Source of the DNA: Phycisphaerales bacterium
GTDB lineage: Bacteria > Planctomycetota > Phycisphaerae > Sedimentisphaerales > UBA12454
Length of the DNA stretch: 64,000 nt
Assembly (NCBI GenBank): GCA_003142595.1
Contig: PLMU01000006.1
Coordinates: 209,666 to 273,665, forward strand
Reading direction: 5' to 3'
Part shown: one piece after another, positions 1,396-13,663 of the stretch
How the letters are laid out: each line of letters starts with the position of its first letter
Position numbering within the stretch: position 1 is the first letter of the stretch
Position numbers and translations under genes: made by a program
Notes under the pieces: generated by a model
Told to the model about the DNA's origin: nothing
Seen by the model: only the letters and a program-made list of their open reading frames with translations
Databases searched by the model: none

Positions 1396-2049
1396 TTATT
1401 TTTTGTCGCCGGCTGGAGGAGTATTTGGACCATGTGGGTCTCTTGGGCGTTTTTGCAATTCGGAGAATTTCTCAACAGTCAGCCATTTATCGCTGCCTTT
1501 AGTTGATTCTATGCCCGTAACTTCTACCGGTTTACCTGCCAGTTTCTCGGCAAGCTCTTTGCCCTTTGCATCAAGAACGATATTAGTAGTTTTAGTAGTT
1601 CCAGTCTTGTAGGTTTCCACTGTTACCGATTTAATGACGCCGTTAGAGTCTTTTATCACAAAGAGTCTGCCTTTAACCGTTATTGCCTCTGCTTTTTTAG
1701 CGGGTGCATTAGGTTCGACAGCTAATCTGAGAACAATATTAGCCTTAGGTGCATTTGGCTCCTTTGCAGGCTTGTTTGCATCCGGAGTATTTGGACATAC
1801 ACCCTTTGTTAAGTTAATGCTAATATTAGCCTTAGGTGCATTTGGATCCTTTTTTGCAGGCTTATTTGCATCAGGCATATTTGGACATACACCCTTTGTT
1901 AAGTTCATGCTAATATTGGCCTTAGGTGCATTTGGATCCTTGACAGGCTTATTTGCATCAGGCTTATTAGGTTCTGCAGCCTTTGCAAAACTAACAGCAA
2001 CAAATGCGACCAATACCACAACAAGAGTTAATACTACCAGTTTCTTCAT
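1396..2049 (-). CDS. secreted repeat protein with (D)PNAPKANIxxxLTKGVCPNxPDANKPAK repeats
   Basis: Signal peptide, ~3 internal repeats, C-terminal domain shared with 671..1096. Confidence 0.7.
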   Translation of the reverse strand: MKKLVVLTLVVVLVAFVAVSFAKAAEPNKPDANKPVKDPNAPKANISMNLTKGVCPNMPDANKPAKKDPNAPKANISINLTKGVCPNTPDANKPAKEPNAPKANIVLRLAVEPNAPAKKAEAITVKGRLFVIKDSNGVIKSVTVETYKTGTTKTTNIVLDAKGKELAEKLAGKPVEVTGIESTKGSDKWLTVEKFSELQKRPRDPHGPNTPPAGDKK

Positions 2050-2266
2050 TTTTTAATCTCCTAATTTAAATTACCTATTTTAACATTGTTTCTAAAACAC
2101 TTATATTTATAGTTTAATAACTATTACCTTCATTCTTGACTGCCGCCTCATCACTTCCTTTCTCACCCGCAAAAATAATCTTCATCCTGAATATATACAA
2201 TAAAACCAAACATTATAATACGTCCGAAAACAGTTTCAACAGATAAATATTTCAGTAAAATAAAAA

Positions 2267-2294
2267 TCCCGCACCTGATTTTTCAAGTGCGGGA
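2267..2294 (-). terminator. terminator downstream of carB
   Basis: TCCCGCAC/GTGCGGGA hairpin followed on minus by TTTTTATTTTA. Confidence 0.75.
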
Positions 2295-2321
2295 CTTCTA
2301 AAATCGTAAGTTGGGGTAATT

Positions 2322-5300
2322 TTATTTAATATCAGCGTGGTATTCCTGCAGAGACCTGATTTTTCCTTTTCCTTTTTGAATGGCTTCGATACCTTTAGCG
2401 CTTGCGTTTGCCGCTGCGATAGTCGTTATGTAAGGAATCTTATGTTTTATCGCGGCCTTTCGGATATATGAATCATCGTGCTGACTGGTTTTGCCCGCAG
2501 GTGTGTTTATCAGAATCTGAATCTCGCCGTTCTTTATCGCATCAACAATATTCGGCCTGCCTTCGTGCATCTTGTTAACCTTCTCGGCCTTGACGCCTTT
2601 TTGAGTAAGGTATTTATATGTCCCGCCGGTAGCAAGAATCTTAAAACCAAGTTTAGCTAAACTTTTCGCGACGCCTACAGCATTGCCTTTATCCTGGTCA
2701 TTTACCGTAATAAGAGCAGTTCCTTTACTCGGCAGCGTTTGCTTGGCGGCATCTTCAGCTTTGTAAAATGCCAGCCCGAACGACTCTGCCATTCCGAGCA
2801 CTTCACCGGTCGAGCGCATCTCAGGGCCGAGAACCGGGTCAACTTCCGGAAACATATTAAACGGAAATACAGATTCTTTTACTCCAAAGTGCGGGAATTT
2901 TTTATGCTGCAGTTTCAGTTCCGCAATTTTTTTACCGAGCATTAACTGCGTGGCGAGCCTCGCCATTTGTATTCCGCAAACCTTTGAAACCAGCGGCACC
3001 GTTCGCGAGGCACGGGGATTTGCCTCGAGGACATAGACTATGTCTTTAGCTATGGCATACTGCATATTCATAAGGCCAACGACATTAAGTTTTACCGCGA
3101 TTTTGCGCGTATATTCGTTAATGGTATCGAGATGTTTTTGCGGAATGCTGATTGGCGGAATAACGCAGGCCGAGTCGCCGGAGTGTATTCCGGCAAGCTC
3201 GATATGCTCCATAACCGCCGGCACAAACGCGTCGCTGCCGTCGGCAAGAGCGTCGGCTTCGCACTCAATGGCATCTTCAAGGAATTTATCAATCAGGATT
3301 GGTCTTTCCGGCGTAACTCCAACAGCAGCATCGACATATCGTTTCAGCATCTCGGCATCGTGAACAACTTCCATACCGCGTCCGCCCAGGACGTAGGAAG
3401 GCCGAACCATCAAAGGATACCCGATTTTAGCGGCGACTTTGGCAGCCTCTTCAAACGTGGTTGCCATACCGGATGCAGGCATAGGAATATCGAGGCTCTC
3501 CATTTTCTTTCGGAACCTATCGCGGTCTTCGGCAAGGTCGATGCTCTCAACGGAAGTGCCGAGAATTTTTACGCCTGCCTTTTCGAGCTGTGCAGCGATA
3601 TTCAAAGGTGTCTGTCCGCCAAACTGGCAAATTACGCCTAATGGTTTTTCTTTTTCGTAAATGCTCAGAACATCTTCGACTGTCAAAGGTTCGAAATAAA
3701 GTTTATCGGAAGTGTCATAATCGGTTGACACCGTTTCCGGGTTGCAGTTCACCATAATGGTTTCGTAACCCAAGTCGCGAAGCGCAAATGCCGCGTGCAC
3801 ACAGCAATAATCGAATTCAATGCCCTGACCGATTCTGTTTGGTCCGCCGCCGAGCACCATAATTTTATTTTTATTGCTTACACCCACCTCATCCGGAGCG
3901 TTATAGCTCGAATAATAATACGCTGCGTTTTCAACGCCGCTGACAGGAACAGCGTGCCAGCCTTCGACAACGCCGAGACCTTTGCGCTGATTTCTGATTT
4001 TTTCTTCCGTTGTGTTGAGAATCTGCGAAAGATATTTATCTGAAAAGCCGTCTTTCTTGGCCTTTGTCAGCAGTTTATCCGGAACCTGTTTGCCTTTATA
4101 TTTCAGGATTTCCTCTTCAAGCTCGACAAGTTCCTTCATCTGCTGCAGAAAGTATGGCTTGATATATGTTTTTTCGTAAAGCTCCTGGATGTCAGCGCCT
4201 TTTCTGATGGCTTCATACATAATAAATTGCCGTTCGCTTGTCGGCTCGCTAAGCATATTCATCAGTTCGGGAAGTGATTTTTTATTGAAATCTTTTGCAA
4301 AACCAAGGCCGTATCTTCCGCTTTCCAGCGAACGAATAGATTTCTGGAAGGCTTCTTTGTATGTTTTGCCGATACTCATAACTTCGCCAACGGCCCGCAT
4401 CTGCGTGCCGAGCTTGTCCTGAACGCCTTTGAACTTTTCAAATGCCCATCTTGAAAATTTAACAACGACATAATCTCCGCTTGGCGTGTATTTTTCGAGC
4501 GTTCCATCCCGCCAATACGGTATTTCATCAAGTGTCAGCCCGCCTGCCAGCATTGACGATACCATCGCGATTGGAAAGCCGGTTGCTTTTGAAGCAAGTG
4601 CGCTTGAACGGCTTGTTCGCGGGTTGATTTCGATGACGACCACCCTGCCGGTTTTGGGGTCGTGAGCGAACTGGATATTCGTTCCGCCGATAACCTGAAT
4701 GGCCTCAACAATATCATAAGAATATTTTTGCAGTTTCTGCTGAAGTTTCGGGTCGATGGTCAACATCGGAGCGGTGCAGTATGAATCGCCGGTATGAACG
4801 CCCATCGCATCGACGTTTTCAATAAAGCAAACGGTAATCATCTGGTTCTTTGCGTCGCGGACAACTTCAAGCTCCAGCTCTTCCCAGCCGAGCACAGATT
4901 CTTCAATCAGGATTTGCCCGACAAGACTTGCCGATATACCTCTGCTTGCGATGACACGGAGCTCTTCAATATTATAAACCAGTCCGCCTCCGGTTCCGCC
5001 CATAGTATATGCCGGCCGAACAACAACCGGATAGCCGAGCTCTTCAGCGACTTTTTCCGCCTCTTCAACGGTATATGCCGGTGCGCTCTTTGGCATATCG
5101 ATGCCGAGTTTGCTCATCGTGTTTTTAAACGCGATTCTGTCTTCGCCCCGCTCGATCGCATCGACGTTTACGCCGATAACCTTGACGCCGTATTTTTCCA
5201 AAACGCCGGCCTTGGCAAGTTCTGAGACAAGGTTAAGGCCGCTCTGGCCGCCCAGATTGGGCAACAGGCCATCAGGCCGTTCCTTCTTTATGATTTCCGT

Positions 5301-5534
5301 CATTGTCTCAAGATTCAGAGGCTCGATATAAGTAAAATCCGCCATGCCGGGGTCGGTCATAATTGTGGCGGGATTGGAATTGGCGAGCACTATTTTATAG
5401 CCGAGCTTTCGAAGTGCCTTGCAGGCTTGTGTGCCGGAATAATCGAATTCACAGGCCTGGCCGATAATAATCGGGCCGGAACCTATTATCATTACTTTCG
5501 TTACGTCATCTCTTCTTGGCATCTTATCCTCCAT
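2322..5534 (-). CDS. carB: carbamoyl-phosphate synthase large subunit
   Basis: 1070 aa; MIIGSGPIIIGQACEFDYSGTQACKAL; two ATP-grasp halves; MGS domain at C-terminus. Confidence 0.98.
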   Translation of the reverse strand: MEDKMPRRDDVTKVMIIGSGPIIIGQACEFDYSGTQACKALRKLGYKIVLANSNPATIMTDPGMADFTYIEPLNLETMTEIIKKERPDGLLPNLGGQSGLNLVSELAKAGVLEKYGVKVIGVNVDAIERGEDRIAFKNTMSKLGIDMPKSAPAYTVEEAEKVAEELGYPVVVRPAYTMGGTGGGLVYNIEELRVIASRGISASLVGQILIEESVLGWEELELEVVRDAKNQMITVCFIENVDAMGVHTGDSYCTAPMLTIDPKLQQKLQKYSYDIVEAIQVIGGTNIQFAHDPKTGRVVVIEINPRTSRSSALASKATGFPIAMVSSMLAGGLTLDEIPYWRDGTLEKYTPSGDYVVVKFSRWAFEKFKGVQDKLGTQMRAVGEVMSIGKTYKEAFQKSIRSLESGRYGLGFAKDFNKKSLPELMNMLSEPTSERQFIMYEAIRKGADIQELYEKTYIKPYFLQQMKELVELEEEILKYKGKQVPDKLLTKAKKDGFSDKYLSQILNTTEEKIRNQRKGLGVVEGWHAVPVSGVENAAYYYSSYNAPDEVGVSNKNKIMVLGGGPNRIGQGIEFDYCCVHAAFALRDLGYETIMVNCNPETVSTDYDTSDKLYFEPLTVEDVLSIYEKEKPLGVICQFGGQTPLNIAAQLEKAGVKILGTSVESIDLAEDRDRFRKKMESLDIPMPASGMATTFEEAAKVAAKIGYPLMVRPSYVLGGRGMEVVHDAEMLKRYVDAAVGVTPERPILIDKFLEDAIECEADALADGSDAFVPAVMEHIELAGIHSGDSACVIPPISIPQKHLDTINEYTRKIAVKLNVVGLMNMQYAIAKDIVYVLEANPRASRTVPLVSKVCGIQMARLATQLMLGKKIAELKLQHKKFPHFGVKESVFPFNMFPEVDPVLGPEMRSTGEVLGMAESFGLAFYKAEDAAKQTLPSKGTALITVNDQDKGNAVGVAKSLAKLGFKILATGGTYKYLTQKGVKAEKVNKMHEGRPNIVDAIKNGEIQILINTPAGKTSQHDDSYIRKAAIKHKIPYITTIAAANASAKGIEAIQKGKGKIRSLQEYHADIK

Positions 5535-5672
5535 GAAAACATGAAAAGCTACATATTTGTCAGATTTACAATTATGTGGAAATTATATACAAATTCGTAG
5601 CCTGTAAAAGCAAAAAATCGATGAAATTTTAAGCATCTTGCCTTTTTGCCTCTTTTTTTTTATCATACCGCT

Positions 5673-6233
5673 ATGGCAGGAAAAGGATTAGTCCAGATTT
5701 ACACAGGTTTAGGCAAAGGTAAAACAACCGCCGCTCTGGGCGTTGCCCTGCGTGCAGCAGGCTGGGGCAAAAAAGTTATCATCTACCAATTCCTAAAACC
5801 ACCCGCCCTTGTGCTCGGAGAACGAAAGGCAATTACAAAGTCAAAACTTCCAATTAAAATCGTGCCTGTCGATATAAAATGGAATATGCAGAAAAAGAAT
5901 AATACAGCATCCGCCGTCGCCAAGGCTATGGCGAACAAGTTGGTTTGCGATAAGATAGACCAGACCTGCAAAGAAATTCAGACTGTCGCCCGAAAAGGGA
6001 AATACGATATTATAATCCTCGATGAAATTATATTTTGCTTATCGAAAAAACTTGTTAGCCTGGAACGGATAAAAAAAATAATTAAGGCAAAGCAAAAATT
6101 AGTTGAAATTATCCTTACCGGCAGAGGCGCGACAAAAGATATAATCAAACTCGCAGACCTCGTTACAGAAATGAAAGAAGTAAAGCACCCATTCAGAAAA
6201 AACGTAAAGGCAAGAAAAGGAATTGAATATTAG
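5673..6233 (+). CDS. cobO: cob(I)yrinic acid a,c-diamide adenosyltransferase-like protein
   Basis: GLVQIYTGLGKGKTTAALGVALRAAGWGKKVIIYQFLK; start taken at ATG 5673 rather than 5646. Confidence 0.85.
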   Translation: MAGKGLVQIYTGLGKGKTTAALGVALRAAGWGKKVIIYQFLKPPALVLGERKAITKSKLPIKIVPVDIKWNMQKKNNTASAVAKAMANKLVCDKIDQTCKEIQTVARKGKYDIIILDEIIFCLSKKLVSLERIKKIIKAKQKLVEIILTGRGATKDIIKLADLVTEMKEVKHPFRKNVKARKGIEY

Positions 6234-6242
6234 GATTCGCCA

Positions 6243-7001
6243 ATGAATATCGCGGTAATAATTTGTGCGGCGGGAAGCAGCAAAAGATTTGTTAAGGAAC
6301 AGCAGCATAATCTTGAAGCGGCCAGGAAAAAACAATTCGCCGATGTTGCGGGCAGGCCGGCGTTTCTGCGAAGCATTGAATTTTTCGCCAACAGAGACAA
6401 TGTTAAACAAATAATAATGTCAATCCCTGCCGAAGATGAGGAAATGTTCAAAATCTCGCACGGAGCAAACCTCAGCTTCCACGGCGTAAAACTCTGCCTG
6501 GGCGGAGCAGAAAGATTTGAAACAGTCGCTAAGGCACTTGAACTTGTCAAAGACGATATCGACCTTGTGGCGGTCCACGATGCCGTCCGATGCTGCCTGA
6601 AAGAAAAATGGCTCGATGATGTTTTTAAGGCCGCTGAACAAACCGGCGCTGCGATGCTTGCCTGCCCTGTCGTTGCGACATTGAAAAAAGTTAAAGACGG
6701 CCAAATAATCCAAACAGTTGACCGAGCAGGCCTTTACGAAGCACAAACGCCGCAGGTATTTAAAAAGGATTTACTTAAAAAAGCTTATGCAAATCTGAAT
6801 AAATTAGATAAGTCAAAAATAAGCGACGATTCACAACTCGTTGAAGCAATGGGACAGAAAGTTTCAATAGTAGAAACTGACTTCTCGAATATCAAGATAA
6901 CCAATAAGTCTGATATTGCAATTGCAGAGGCGATAATCAAATCCCGGCCGAAACCAAAACCGCAAGGACCAGCCGGAGCGTATTACGAAGCGCAATGGTA
7001 A
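6243..7001 (+). CDS. ispD: 2-C-methyl-D-erythritol 4-phosphate cytidylyltransferase
   Basis: ICAAGSSKRF, VAVHDAVRCC, QTPQVFKKDLL, DDSQLVEAMGQKV motifs. Confidence 0.9.
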   Translation: MNIAVIICAAGSSKRFVKEQQHNLEAARKKQFADVAGRPAFLRSIEFFANRDNVKQIIMSIPAEDEEMFKISHGANLSFHGVKLCLGGAERFETVAKALELVKDDIDLVAVHDAVRCCLKEKWLDDVFKAAEQTGAAMLACPVVATLKKVKDGQIIQTVDRAGLYEAQTPQVFKKDLLKKAYANLNKLDKSKISDDSQLVEAMGQKVSIVETDFSNIKITNKSDIAIAEAIIKSRPKPKPQGPAGAYYEAQW

Positions 7002-7073
7002 GTAAAAGAAGTTAAAAACTAAAATCGTCAAGATGGCTTACGCCAGTGAAAAGTTTAGGAACCGCCCCCGATA

Positions 7074-7685
7074 TTACGCGTTAACTGAGTTTTGCGAGCG
7101 CAGGTATTGCATTATTTTCCAGCCGAGTATGACCGCAACAATAAAACCGAGGATGACCCAGGCGAGGTTGCCTAAGACCTCTGCAATAGATTGAACGCGT
7201 TCGCTGAAGATGTAGCCCAACATCACATACAAAACCACCCAAAGCACTTCGCCCAGCACGTCCCAGAGGATAAAATGACGCCAGGGATAGTCGGCGATCC
7301 CGCTGGTCACATTGAGCCACGGCCCCAGCGGCGTCACCAACCAGCGGCTGAAGAAAATGCCTGGCCCGCCCCACCGTTTGGCAAGTGCTTCTGTTTTTTT
7401 AATTTTGGCTTCACCCCCTATTTTACGGCTGATCCGTTTCACCAAACGACGACCGACCCAGCGAGCCACACCATATCCGATTAAATCGCCCAACACGGAG
7501 GCCGTGCTCGCCACGATGATCACTGGCCACAGCTTCATTTCGCCCTGCTCGACAAATGAACCGGCCGCTACGAGCATCAAGCTGGCGGGCAACGGGGCAC
7601 CGATGGAGGAGAACATGGTCACACCGAAAAGCGCAGGCATACCGTAGAGCAAGAACGCAGCCAGGAGTTGATCGGTGAGACTCAT
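7074..7685 (-). CDS. DedA family membrane protein
   Basis: GAPLPASLMLVAAGSFVEQG, GDLIGYGVARWVGR, FFSRWLVTPLGPWLNVTSG. Confidence 0.85.
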   Translation of the reverse strand: MSLTDQLLAAFLLYGMPALFGVTMFSSIGAPLPASLMLVAAGSFVEQGEMKLWPVIIVASTASVLGDLIGYGVARWVGRRLVKRISRKIGGEAKIKKTEALAKRWGGPGIFFSRWLVTPLGPWLNVTSGIADYPWRHFILWDVLGEVLWVVLYVMLGYIFSERVQSIAEVLGNLAWVILGFIVAVILGWKIMQYLRSQNSVNA

Positions 7686-8080
7686 GGCGAGGCCTCTTGA
7701 TCGGAGTTTTGATCGGGCAGCGGCGGCGGATACGGAGGACGCGCGTGAATGATCGCATTTTGCAGGACCGATTTGATTTCGTCCATCGAACGATGCTGCA
7801 TATTAGCAATTTGGCGCAACGGTCGCTTATTCGGCTGTTGTTTAGGGAGACCCAACGCCTGATATAACACATACGGCGGGACACGATAAGAATGCGCGAC
7901 GTAGCCGACATTCATCCATCCATGAATCGGCTCATCACTGTGAGCTTGCCAGTAGATCACCTTGCGTGCCATATGCACGGCCTTGAACGCGGTGAATCCA
8001 GCGATAAGCAGAAACATTGCCACGACCAGCCACTGCTGCCGGCGAAATTTTCTCACGGTGCTGATGAACCTTGATCTCAT
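7682..8080 (-). CDS. hypothetical membrane-anchored protein, coupled to DedA gene
   Basis: ORF with N-terminal TM segment; stop/start overlap with downstream DedA. Confidence 0.6.
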   Translation of the reverse strand: MRSRFISTVRKFRRQQWLVVAMFLLIAGFTAFKAVHMARKVIYWQAHSDEPIHGWMNVGYVAHSYRVPPYVLYQALGLPKQQPNKRPLRQIANMQHRSMDEIKSVLQNAIIHARPPYPPPLPDQNSDQEASP

Positions 8081-8356
8081 AAATACACCTTACAACATGC
8101 CTTAGGATTTCTCGCCGAAGCTGCGTTAATCTCGCGGTTGCGCATAACTCAAACTCATTTGATACGCAATGTAGCAAAATCGAAAAAGAAGTCAACGTGA
8201 TTCCCCCATTTCAGCAGTTTTGAGCAATGCCGAAGGACTTCACGAATTTGTTGAGCGAAAAAAAACTTACTTTTCTTTCCAGTTAATGATATACTGCCTT
8301 TCCAAGGTCAGGATACAGAAGGCAATGTCTCATCAATTAAGAAAGGAGAATGTCCA

Positions 8357-9766
8357 ATGACAAACATTATGACGATCTTCACATCTGTGCATGCAGTTCA
8401 GCTGCGCAACCGCATTGTCACGGTTTTGATGCTCACGTTACTTTCGAGCAATTACGTCTTTGCACAGGCGAATGGCGAAGCTGTAAAAGTGCTACGCGGT
8501 AAGGCGGCTTTCGGCGATTGGCGGGAGGATGCTCCAAGCGTGCGGCGGCTAATCACACCAATGGATCTGCCGGATATTGGCCCGGAAACACCCAACATCG
8601 TAGAGGTAGTCCCGCAGCCTGCGGGTGTTCGGCCGCAGGTTCCGAAAGGTTTTTCGGTCGAGATGGTGACTTCGGGACTTGCTCAGGCGCGTTTGATTCG
8701 TGTCGCGCCCAACGGCGATCTCTTTGTCGCTAATAGTTCGGCAAACGAGGTGCGCGTTTACCGGATCCCTCCCGGCTCGGCAAAACCTACCGTCAGCGAG
8801 ATTTTCGCTACCGGACTCCGCCAACCTTATGGCATCGCATTCTACCCGCCGGGACCGAATCCCGCATGGATATACATCGCCAACTCCAATGGCGTTGTTC
8901 GCTTCCCCTACAAGAACGGGGTTCTAAAGACGACCGCCAAACCGGAACGTATTGTCGAATATATTCCGCCGGCCCACCACTGGACCAGAGACATCCTGTT
9001 CACTCCCGACGGCAATCGGATGTTAGTTTCGGTCGGCTCGGGGTCCAACATCGCTCTTGATATGTTCCCCGCGCCGCACGTCCCAGGTGACGTCAACGGC
9101 TGGAACAAGACCCATCAGCTCGGCGCCGCTTGGGACACTGAAGAAGGCCGCGCCAACATTCTTTCATTCGATCCTGAAGGCAAAAACCAGAAAATAGTTG
9201 CTACAGGGATACGCAATCCCGCCGGTATCACTATTCAACCAGCCACGGGCCAGCTTTGGGCAGTGGCCAATGAACGCGACGGGCTCGGCGACAATACTCC
9301 TTTTGAGTACGCTACGCACGTTAAGGAAGGCGCCTTCTTCGGCTGGCCGTGGTACTACATCGGCGGCCACGAGGACCCCCGCCACAAAGGTGAGCGCACC
9401 GACCTCAAGGACCAAACCACAATTCCAGACGTCTTGATCCAGGCTCATTCAGCCCCGCTCCAGATTGTGTTCTACGACGGCAACGATTTTCCGGCCGAGT
9501 ACAAGGGCAACGCCTTCGTTACGCTGCATGGTTCGTGGGACCGCTCTCGAAGGACCGGCTATAAAGTGGTGCGCCTGCTCTTCGACAATAGCGGCAAACC
9601 GACCGGCGAATACGAGGACTTCATGACAGGCTTCGTCATTTCTGACAAGCAAGTTTGGGGTCGCCCTGTTGGAGTAGCGGTCGCCGCGGATGGATCGCTC
9701 TTTGTTACCGAAGACGGCAACGGAACGATTTGGCGAATTTCGTACCAGAAACCTGATGCTCGCTGA
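8357..9766 (+). CDS. glucose/sorbosone dehydrogenase-like beta-propeller protein
   Basis: GFSVEMVTSGLAQARLIRVAPNGDLFVANS, GLRQPYGIAFYP, GIRNPAGITIQPATGQLWAVANERDGLGD; SD AAAGGAG. Confidence 0.85.
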   Translation: MTNIMTIFTSVHAVQLRNRIVTVLMLTLLSSNYVFAQANGEAVKVLRGKAAFGDWREDAPSVRRLITPMDLPDIGPETPNIVEVVPQPAGVRPQVPKGFSVEMVTSGLAQARLIRVAPNGDLFVANSSANEVRVYRIPPGSAKPTVSEIFATGLRQPYGIAFYPPGPNPAWIYIANSNGVVRFPYKNGVLKTTAKPERIVEYIPPAHHWTRDILFTPDGNRMLVSVGSGSNIALDMFPAPHVPGDVNGWNKTHQLGAAWDTEEGRANILSFDPEGKNQKIVATGIRNPAGITIQPATGQLWAVANERDGLGDNTPFEYATHVKEGAFFGWPWYYIGGHEDPRHKGERTDLKDQTTIPDVLIQAHSAPLQIVFYDGNDFPAEYKGNAFVTLHGSWDRSRRTGYKVVRLLFDNSGKPTGEYEDFMTGFVISDKQVWGRPVGVAVAADGSLFVTEDGNGTIWRISYQKPDAR

Positions 9767-9783
9767 CCGGCTGCGACTCATCC

Positions 9784-9891
9784 AATAACTACTGCGGCGG
9801 AGTGGACATCAACGGTTCAGGCGCGATTGACTTCGCGGATTCCACTGATTTATTTCGCCGCGAAAAAAACTTGCTTTTCTTTTCAGTTTAA
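9784..9891 (+). pseudogene. dockerin-like fragment out of frame with the preceding CDS
   Basis: Reads NNYCGGVDINGSGAIDFADSTDLFRREKNLLFFSV*. Confidence 0.5.
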
Positions 9892-10095
9892 GGCTATATT
9901 GTTTCTTTAAGGCCGGAGAAATCTTTCGATGCGCTACGCTTGCTCAGGACAGGTGGCTATTAAGGAAATCACACCTTTGCCTGCCCTCGTGGTATGCTTC
10001 CTTGGATTGGCAGACGGAGGATCCGTCAACATTGCCGTCCGGCAGACGGGCTTTGACTCGGTTTATGCAGTTTGTGTAATCGTTGTTGGGCATTA

Positions 10096-10875
10096 ATGAA
10101 AAAAATGAAGCGTTTCCATATCACTAGCATTAAAGATTACTTTCATGGCCTTTGTGATATGACAGAACGCCGATTTCAGGATCTGCCAACTCCTCTACCA
10201 TGGATTGAGCCTTCCATAAACATGCTTTACTTGGAGTCGGTGTTATCATATGTTTTGGGTAACAACTTTTGTTCAATAATAAGTATGAGCGCATTATTAG
10301 AGCATGTCCTTCGACTTGCGCTATTGGACAGAAACAACACTGGCCTGACTAGCTCTCTTTCGTTAAAACAGCTTGGTAAAATAAGTAGTATTAGCGTTGC
10401 AATTGAAAAGGCCACCTCTGAAGGCATAATAGACACCAAAGACAAAGCTTGGTGGGATAGCATCGCTATGGTTATCAGAAACAAAAGTGCTCATTATGTC
10501 ATCCCAAAATTGATCAAAGATTTCACCAAACAGAAATATGATGAAGGTCAAGAAGATCGCGAGAAATATTCTCCCGTTTATTATCGTCAAACAAATGATA
10601 AAGGTGAACCCAAAACTCCGCTTTCACTCGATTGGGGGATGTTCTTTCACAAAGTTGGTTATTTCATAGCTAAAGCATATATCGTTGATGGAACATTCTA
10701 TTTAAAGAAAGTCATTGAGACCACAGATTGGAAGCCAGATAAATCCTATTGGGCCAGCCAAGAAGATGAATATAACTCTTTCTTTTCTTACAACTGGAAC
10801 ATTGCTGAGATGATCGAGTCACTTAACAGCGTTAACGAGCGGTCGAAGTCGGACGGTCCAAAGGCGGTCGAGTAA
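10096..10875 (+). CDS. uncharacterised protein with HEPN-like RxxxxH motif
   Basis: IAMVIRNKSAHYVI; ATG at 10096 preferred to TTG at 10072; followed by SIR2-like gene. Confidence 0.6.
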   Translation: MKKMKRFHITSIKDYFHGLCDMTERRFQDLPTPLPWIEPSINMLYLESVLSYVLGNNFCSIISMSALLEHVLRLALLDRNNTGLTSSLSLKQLGKISSISVAIEKATSEGIIDTKDKAWWDSIAMVIRNKSAHYVIPKLIKDFTKQKYDEGQEDREKYSPVYYRQTNDKGEPKTPLSLDWGMFFHKVGYFIAKAYIVDGTFYLKKVIETTDWKPDKSYWASQEDEYNSFFSYNWNIAEMIESLNSVNERSKSDGPKAVE

Positions 10876-10958
10876 TACGGTGATGGCGGTTTTGTAAAAG
10901 AAGGGTATTATAAAAAAAGGCAAAAAGCAACGGTAACTTGATTTCAGAAAAAGCGTAT

Positions 10959-12053
10959 ATGAGTTCAAAACGAGTTTTTATTCTTGGTGCTGGTTTTTCA
11001 AAGATGGCTGGGATGCCTCTGGCCACGGATTTAACGAACCACCTCGGTGGCAAGTTCCGAGAGGATAATCTGGAGGATGCCCTGGAATGGCTTGGATGTT
11101 TGCAGCAGAGAATTGAATGGCTGGGGGACGGTAAGTCGAAGGGTATAAACATCAAAGAGGTGTTCGACCTTGCGCAGTTCGATATTGAGTTACTGAAAAT
11201 GCGACAGCAATTGTGCCAGCTTGGTCGTAACTGTGGTGATACGCGTTGGCAAGACGCAGATGGTATTGAGGCATGGCTAGAATATATGGAGCACGACCTT
11301 CGGGATGTCGTCTGGGAGAAACAGAAAAAGGCGACGCTTGACGCCGTTAAGAGGTTCTCAAATTATCTGAACCCTAATGACATTGTGTTGACCTTTAATT
11401 ATGACACGCTTCTGGAAAAATCCTTAGAACAGCAAAATAAGAAATGGCATTACGGCTTCGAGCAGGAGAAAGGCTCCGGCGTAAAGATTCTGAAAATGCA
11501 CGGTTCAATAAATTGGATAATGGTTCGTCGTGACCAAAAGGATAATTTTGACTATCCCCTTCTTTTCGAGAAAACAGACCTTAATGTCGAGTACCATGGT
11601 GCAAAAGCATCAAACGAAATCGAATACAATTATGTGCTGTTACGAGTACCTAATGACAAACTTCCTAATAGGATTGAAAATAGAGATTTACAATTAGGAA
11701 ATAAACAATATGAGATTGCGATGGCCGGCTTAGGGAAGTACAAGCTGCTTAGTGAACTGGTGGGGAGCGGCGAAATTTGGAATAACGCGATTAGAGCACT
11801 GCGTAACTGTGAGCAGATATATATTATTGGATTTTCGCTCTCGCCGTTTGACACGATGGCTCGTCTGCATTTTGGCGGTGTTATGATGGAACGTTCTAAA
11901 GAAAAAAAAATTAGATTACCGCTGATAACGCTGATCGATCCCATCGCAGGGGAATTAAAGTCTAACTTTAAGAAAGTTTTTGGTTGTAGTGCCAGCATAG
12001 ACGTAATAGAAAAGAAAGGCGAAGAAGTCGATTGGTCAACTCTGCTTGCTTGA
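10959..12053 (+). CDS. SIR2-like domain protein
   Basis: RVFILGAGFSKMAGMPLA, NDIVLTFNYDTLLEKSLE, KILKMHGSINW, IYIIGFSLSPFDTMARLHF; start at ATG 10959. Confidence 0.8.
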   Translation: MSSKRVFILGAGFSKMAGMPLATDLTNHLGGKFREDNLEDALEWLGCLQQRIEWLGDGKSKGINIKEVFDLAQFDIELLKMRQQLCQLGRNCGDTRWQDADGIEAWLEYMEHDLRDVVWEKQKKATLDAVKRFSNYLNPNDIVLTFNYDTLLEKSLEQQNKKWHYGFEQEKGSGVKILKMHGSINWIMVRRDQKDNFDYPLLFEKTDLNVEYHGAKASNEIEYNYVLLRVPNDKLPNRIENRDLQLGNKQYEIAMAGLGKYKLLSELVGSGEIWNNAIRALRNCEQIYIIGFSLSPFDTMARLHFGGVMMERSKEKKIRLPLITLIDPIAGELKSNFKKVFGCSASIDVIEKKGEEVDWSTLLA

Positions 12054-12157
12054 TATAGAGCCCAAAGGATTGAATCGCGGTTTTTGGCCTAAAAACGTCG
12101 TTTTGCTTTGTAATGAACGCGACTATCCCGAATTGATCATGAAAGGAGAATAAGAAA

Positions 12158-12352
12158 ATGGAAGAACGCTGTAAGAATTGCCGTTTTTGGAAAGGAATAA
12201 AAGGGGTTGGGGATGGGAACTCTGGGGAGTGTTATCGAAAAGCACCACTCCCATACAAATGGCGCCCTGAAGAGAACACACTACACGTAGGAACAAGGTG
12301 GCCACTCACAAATGGAGATCAGTATTGCGGGGAATTTGAAGAGAAAAGTTAG
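12158..12352 (+). CDS. small Cys-containing protein
   Basis: SD AAAGGAG; CKNCRFW...GECYRKAP...WPLTNGDQYCGEFE. Confidence 0.65.
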   Translation: MEERCKNCRFWKGIKGVGDGNSGECYRKAPLPYKWRPEENTLHVGTRWPLTNGDQYCGEFEEKS

Positions 12353-12423
12353 TGTATTATTCCGGTGAAATCTGAGCAGGAAGCCCTTGACGAACCGGCA
12401 GGCGAAATACTAACGACTATCGA

Positions 12424-12615
12424 CTAAAGTACTACCCCAACCGTATTACTCGGCATACTTTCCCCCGATGAGTTAATTGCTTTGACTCTATATTCTAATT
12501 TACAGCCGGTCGGCTGGTCTGTTAGTTTGGCTTCGTTATTCAGGATTGTTGCACATAGAGTCCAATCCTGATTGATGGAGCGCCTTTCAATTACATAACA
12601 GCGGATTGGGGGACA
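12424..12615 (-). pseudogene. fibronectin type III domain fragment
   Basis: Minus strand reads PIRCYVIERRSINQDWTLCATILNNEAKLTDQPTGCKLEYRVKAINSSGESMPSNTVGVVL*; upstream stop in frame. Confidence 0.6.
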
Positions 12616-12660
12616 AATTAAACGTGAAAATAATAGTTAGCTGTAACTGTTATTCTCCCC

Positions 12661-13230
12661 TCATCTATTAGCCCTTCGAGAAAAAGTAGAAAAAGCTCCT
12701 ATTAAGGATGTGATAAGAACTATTAGAAATCCTATCATGCCTTCTACGCACCATATAACTAATGGAACAAAGAAAATGGGAGTCAATATTGCAACAACCC
12801 ATCGACCCTCTGAGAAAAACATTACCATAGAATATAACCCTAAAGTCAGCGACACAAATCTAACTAGCCATCCGTTCATGCCAATAAGATTGTATCCAGC
12901 AAGACTTTCGGTTTCGCCCTTTTCAAGAAGTTCATTGTGTAATGATGCAAGCATATATCCCCAGAAACCGTAGAATAAGTTCACTATAAAACCATACCAC
13001 TCTGTTGGTATACGGAATGGAGAGAACAATACTACTAAAAAAGATACGAGAAAATAACTGATAAAGGTTGTAAGGAATACTGCCCAACCAAAATAAAGAG
13101 TTCCGAAAGGCCCGAAAACGAGACCAAGAATAACAGCAAGTACGCAATTTTTTCTTTTACGCTTAACATGGGTCGACGCATAGTTGCAACTCTGGCCACA
13201 GATATCTGCACAGGACTTTTCAGGATTCAT
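12661..13230 (-). CDS. multi-pass membrane protein, hypothetical
   Basis: AAGGAG SD, several TM segments. Confidence 0.65.
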   Translation of the reverse strand: MNPEKSCADICGQSCNYASTHVKRKRKNCVLAVILGLVFGPFGTLYFGWAVFLTTFISYFLVSFLVVLFSPFRIPTEWYGFIVNLFYGFWGYMLASLHNELLEKGETESLAGYNLIGMNGWLVRFVSLTLGLYSMVMFFSEGRWVVAILTPIFFVPLVIWCVEGMIGFLIVLITSLIGAFSTFSRRANR

Positions 13231-13256
13231 TATAATATCTCCTTGTTTTTTGGTAT

Positions 13257-13469
13257 TTATTGTTTTTCAGATGTGGCCCAATATCGCTTATTGCGGTTGG
13301 AGTTAAAGGGCGGGTCGATATAAATAAGGTCAACGCAGTTTTCGGGGAATTTCTTTAATTGTTCGAGATTGTCCCCGCAGTAGATTACCCGCGTATCGAG
13401 CAAAGAGGATGGTTTTCCTGCTGCCTTTTTTGAGTTAGCCGCTTCCTTTGCCATATTTTCCTTAATCAT
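13257..13469 (-). pseudogene. N-terminal fragment of a DNA methyltransferase (N6/N4 type)
   Basis: TRVIYCGDNLEQLKKFPENCVDLIYIDPPFNSNRNKRYWATSEKQ*; ends just after the DPPF motif. Confidence 0.75.
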
Positions 13470-13663
13470 CCGTAAATTATCATAATAAACTGCCCCATTG
13501 TCTATTAGAAAAACCTCTTTGTCAAATCTTCTTTTCGCGTGAAAAATTGGTGAAACTTGTGTAATCCTTCGGCAGGCTCAGGACAGGTTCGTGGCTAATT
13601 TCCTCATATAAACAGTGTAAATCCGTGTTAATCCGTGTCTAAAAAAAGCAGTGTTAATCTGTG

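Follow-up and report, generated by a model that had tools for sequence, protein, structure and literature searches.

Whether two adjacent genes of families that recur in defence should be regarded as one system is a question raised by a HEPN-like gene and a SIR2-like gene in the window, which is a stretch of 64,000 nucleotides belonging to a planctomycete genome of 2.28 Mb in 18 contigs. A preliminary description of this DNA reported two ORFs on the same strand, 83 bp apart, and suggested that their products act together. The layout was confirmed, as both ORFs are uninterrupted, lie on the forward strand (Table 1), and are longer than expected by chance. When the region was shuffled 2000 times with a first-order Markov model, no ORF exceeded 243 aa, so that lengths of 259 and 364 aa were never reached. 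The motifs that had been listed (IRNKSAHY, GAGFSKMAGMP, MHGSINW, and GFSLSPFDTMA) were all recovered at their reported places. As for the function, the pair probably consists of two neighbours and is not a new two-part defence system. We assign a probability of about 0.6 to the reading that two distinct accessory genes, both of a defence or toxin type, stand side by side in one island, and we infer that their proteins are independent of each other.

Table 1. Features of the window and genes found upstream of the close SIR2 relatives (positions in the L rows are those of the respective locus).
Feature	Position	Strand	Description
Accessory island	7002..13663		6.6 kb, between ispD and a conserved ORF
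HEPN-like gene	10096..10875	+	259 aa from ATG; alternative TTG start at 10072
Gap between HEPN-like and SIR2 genes	10876..10958	+	83 nt
SIR2-like gene	10959..12053	+	364 aa, single-domain
64-aa Cys-containing ORF	12158..12352	+	Downstream of the SIR2 gene; weak PHROG match (E 0.014)
Methyltransferase stub	13257..13469	-	70-aa N-terminal piece of a DNA methyltransferase, DPPF motif
L053, Bro-N gene	5160-5996		Ends 4 nt before the SIR2 gene (73% identical to that of the window); tight pair
L053, SIR2 gene	6001-7095		
L054			Ribonucleotide reductase upstream of SIR2, named by sequence inspection
L047, L041			Ribonucleotide reductase upstream, small ORF between; named by sequence inspection
L055	5522-5854		MNT-type nucleotidyltransferase (NTP_transf_2) directly upstream of SIR2
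L045, L044			Ankyrin repeats upstream of SIR2
L056		opposite to SIR2	Mrr endonuclease (Mrr_cat) upstream of SIR2
L058			Nothing recognisable upstream of SIR2

The identity of the second gene is considered first. Its product scored 28.3 bits against Pfam SIR2_2 (PF13289), above the cut-off of 24.5, and 29.1 bits against AbiH (PF14253) over residues 108–299, narrowly under the gathering score of 30.9. Among the PADLOC profiles, matches were obtained with Aga_SIR2 (1.3e-8) and ThsA (1.1e-3), the Aga_SIR2 and SIR2 profiles together reaching up to 1.3e-8. A meaningful relative was not found in a PDB sequence search. The AlphaFold model, built with a 30-sequence alignment (pLDDT 91.3, pTM 0.90), displays a Rossmann-type SIR2 fold, and its best Foldseek matches are SIR2 domains with a probability of 1.00. 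The protein carries the motifs GAGFSKMAGMP, TFNYDTLLE (N147, D149), MHGSINW (HGS, H181), and GFSLSPFDTMA (GFS...D, D298). Thirteen positions are invariant across 30 SIR2 relatives, among them G10, G12, S14, N147, D149, H181, and G182. Comparison with the closest relative, L053, gave a dN of 0.165 and a dS of 0.68 (dN/dS about 0.24, NG86), and the ORF is under purifying selection with respect to this relative. The SIR2 family proposed in the preliminary description is therefore upheld by Pfam, the structure model, and residue conservation. In the NADase ThsA, residues N112 and H152 belong to the same motif class as N147 and H181 (PMC7272460). Cleavage of NAD+ by ThsA requires these Asn and His motifs, although in the case of the His mutant, a loss of oligomerisation could also explain the effect (PMC7272460). 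Because of the fold, the invariant Asn and His, the parallel with ThsA, and the dN/dS value, the protein is likely to be an NADase. In the likely mechanism, an infection-related trigger would activate it, the activated protein would use its Asn147/His181 site to cleave NAD+, and growth arrest or death of the infected cell would follow.

We read the SIR2 gene as encoding a stand-alone SIR2-domain putative NADase of the AbiH/SIR2_2 kind, a new member of that known kind. Like AbiH/SIR2_2 proteins, it comprises a single SIR2-like domain in about 360 aa, has GAG/NYD/HGS motifs, and is encoded by a stand-alone gene in accessory DNA. It differs from AbiH in remaining under the AbiH gathering score and in its host, a member of Planctomycetota, whereas AbiH comes from lactic acid bacteria. 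The mode of action of AbiH is listed as unknown (PMC12322248). The closest solved fold is the SIR2 of SIR2-HerA (Nezha, Gao19), which heads the Foldseek list (E 3e-10, TM 0.5–0.6) before DSR2 and sirtuins, but the identity is only 14–16%. A HerA-like ATPase gene was found neither beside the SIR2 gene of the window nor, by inspection, among the listed flanks of its ten close relatives, nor among those flanks that were scanned with Pfam. Defence NADases have Asn and His motifs at the active site, which the protein shares with ThsA (Thoeris), DSR2, and Aga_SIR2. Unlike them, the protein lacks a SLOG domain and a long helical part at the C-terminus, and it has no ThsB or short Argonaute partner. 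With regard to Thoeris in particular, the protein is a single domain of 364 aa, and a TIR gene is absent among the neighbours scanned.

A point against the stand-alone reading is that certain defence proteins of the SIR2 type depend on a partner, HerA being an example. The surroundings of related SIR2 genes were therefore compared. Searching 400 genomes of the class for family members and then scanning contigs yielded ten close relatives (39–73% identity) in other Planctomycetota genomes and many distant ones. No HEPN-like ORF related to that of the window is present in the fetched flanks of any of the ten. At least 2 kb of upstream sequence is available for nine of them (the L057 contig stops 168 nt before the gene), and a related HEPN gene precedes SIR2 in none of these nine. 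Since they have other upstream genes (Table 1), the SIR2 gene exists without the HEPN-like gene. The HEPN-like gene itself has no detectable relatives. None were found in phages or plasmids (tblastn), in IMG/VR, in GTDB contigs (peptide patterns), in 300 genomes of the class, or in 399 genomes of the phylum. The preliminary description had proposed neighbourhood co-occurrence as a check, with pairs that are never adjacent in other genomes speaking against joint action. This is what was observed, for the SIR2 side only. The SIR2 side thus argues against the suggestion that the pair acts together, and the claim of a two-gene module is unsupported, co-occurrence being testable from that side only with an orphan HEPN-like gene.

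The arrangement of the two genes is nevertheless a point in favour of a rare two-gene defence module, in which both proteins would be made from one transcript and would act jointly. Either one would be a sensor or inhibitor and the other an effector, or both would be effectors, an RNase and an NADase, in a single response. The genes share a strand, and a promoter-like or forward-strand terminator-like site was not recognised when the 83 nt between them were scanned, so co-transcription is possible. Both families recur in defence. If the two proteins did act together, an RNase and an NADase would be combined in one defence system. A described HEPN–SIR2 operon was not found in a search of open-access papers. 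We consider such a module unlikely, given the nine relatives with adequate flanks that have no HEPN gene and the 73%-identical relative, which has Bro-N at a distance of 4 nt instead. The surroundings of two distant SIR2 genes lend the module some weight. In L067 (Halomonas faecis, 1757–5432), two ORFs with HEPN-like motifs (RNQLAH and RHADAH, following the patterns RNxLAH and RHxDAH) directly precede the SIR2 gene, but counterparts of these ORFs are absent from the other loci scanned. A DUF4145 gene occurs near the scanned SIR2 loci once, in L097, where it lies 1.8 kb downstream.

It is slightly less probable again that the SIR2 effector has exchangeable upstream partners, with a regulatory or sensing gene that differs from lineage to lineage and HEPN as one of several. 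Several of the upstream genes are of conflict type (Bro-N in L053, NTP_transf_2 in L055, ankyrin in L044 and L045, and Mrr_cat in L056), which would fit this idea. However, the gene upstream in L054, L047, and L041 is a housekeeping ribonucleotide reductase, so no partner appears to be needed there. The spacing between the upstream gene and SIR2 also varies, being as short as 4 nt and as long as more than 300 nt, and accessory genes cluster together anyway. For the planctomycete SIR2 family, we hold the corresponding joint system, which would be rare and would link RNA cleavage with NAD+ depletion through HEPN as one exchangeable partner, to be just as doubtful. Under the preferred reading of two separate genes, SIR2 effectors that are 39–73% identical form a planctomycete branch in which each is encoded by a single gene and travels without a fixed partner. 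The case is a reminder that two defence-type genes should not be taken for one system because they are adjacent.

The identity of the first gene is considered next. Its product contains E69-HVL-R73 (Ex3R), followed by IRNKSAHY, that is, R128-N-K-S-A-H133 (Rx4H), and a polar residue (N) follows R128. The HEPN superfamily has been defined by Ex3[KR] and Rx4-6H with a polar residue after R (PMC3710099), and the protein fits this definition. When a profile of 17 DUF4145 proteins from the class of the source genome was compared with the protein by hhalign, the probability was 72.2% (E 3.3e-5), or 78% for residues 40–150. The controls were far lower, with at most 0.2% for ten shuffles and at most 4.3% for 250 unrelated ORFs. 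In the alignment, RNKSAH falls on the RN/GN-x3-H of DUF4145, and E69 falls on its conserved Glu. When 7859 ORFs were searched with the profile, the protein ranked directly behind the sole true DUF4145. Weak matches to the protein in the phylum search (E <= 0.1) included one sensible case alone, L138, a true HEPN protein (NTase_sub_bind) with 45% identity over 44 residues at the same motif, RNKxAH. The other weak matches inspected were out-of-frame readings or unrelated proteins. An NCBIfam search gave nothing useful, and PHROGs gave weak matches only.

From these profile comparisons, it is well supported that the first gene encodes a HEPN protein of a DUF4145-like branch, an orphan that Pfam annotation misses. 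The HEPN assignment of the preliminary description thus stands, on the profile comparison with its controls and on the second motif, Ex3R. The alternative that the ORF encodes an unrelated helical, non-HEPN protein with RxxxxH by chance, to which its Pfam DUF4145 (PF13643) score under the cut-off (E 0.17; 0.033 for residues 40–153), the absence of a meaningful relative in a PDB sequence search, and a single-sequence AlphaFold model without an alignment and without confidence (pLDDT 37) would lend some weight, is improbable in view of the hhalign score far above both sets of controls, the two HEPN motifs in correct order and alignment, and the match to L138. The protein resembles DUF4145 HEPN proteins in the motifs Ex3[KR] and RNx3H of that family's helical core and in the profile–profile match, with the 40–133 region in common, but differs in its score under the Pfam cut-off, in its extra N- and C-terminal parts, and in having no relatives in the collections searched. 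The C-terminal approximately 110 aa could not be assigned to any kind. The protein is likely to be a metal-independent RNase, which would cut RNA through R128/H133. An antiphage role may be proposed for both this gene and the SIR2 gene.

Both genes reside in an accessory island, as the preliminary description had supposed for the locus. In two genomes of the same genus (G200 and G170), the region from ispD to tilS does not contain window positions 7002–13663 and has only about 40 nt instead. In three further relatives (G733, G117, and G736), other genes occupy the site. The island site is variable in the lineage. The GC content is 0.55–0.56 at 7074–9766, 0.395 in the HEPN-like gene, and 0.43 in the SIR2 gene. 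Because the segments differ in this way, the island is probably a composite of several arrivals, which makes a single unit less plausible. Direct repeats of at least 10 nt joining the island ends were not found; for this reason, the type of mobile element cannot be named. The gene debris and truncated methyltransferase mentioned in the preliminary description are also present. The methyltransferase stub is a remnant of a restriction–modification gene, and the genome contains a longer paralogue on contig C16 (L165), in a 521-aa open frame with 78% identity over the stub. At 7074–9766, the island carries VTT/DedA-type and glucose/sorbosone dehydrogenase-like genes, with a GC content clearly above that of its remaining part.
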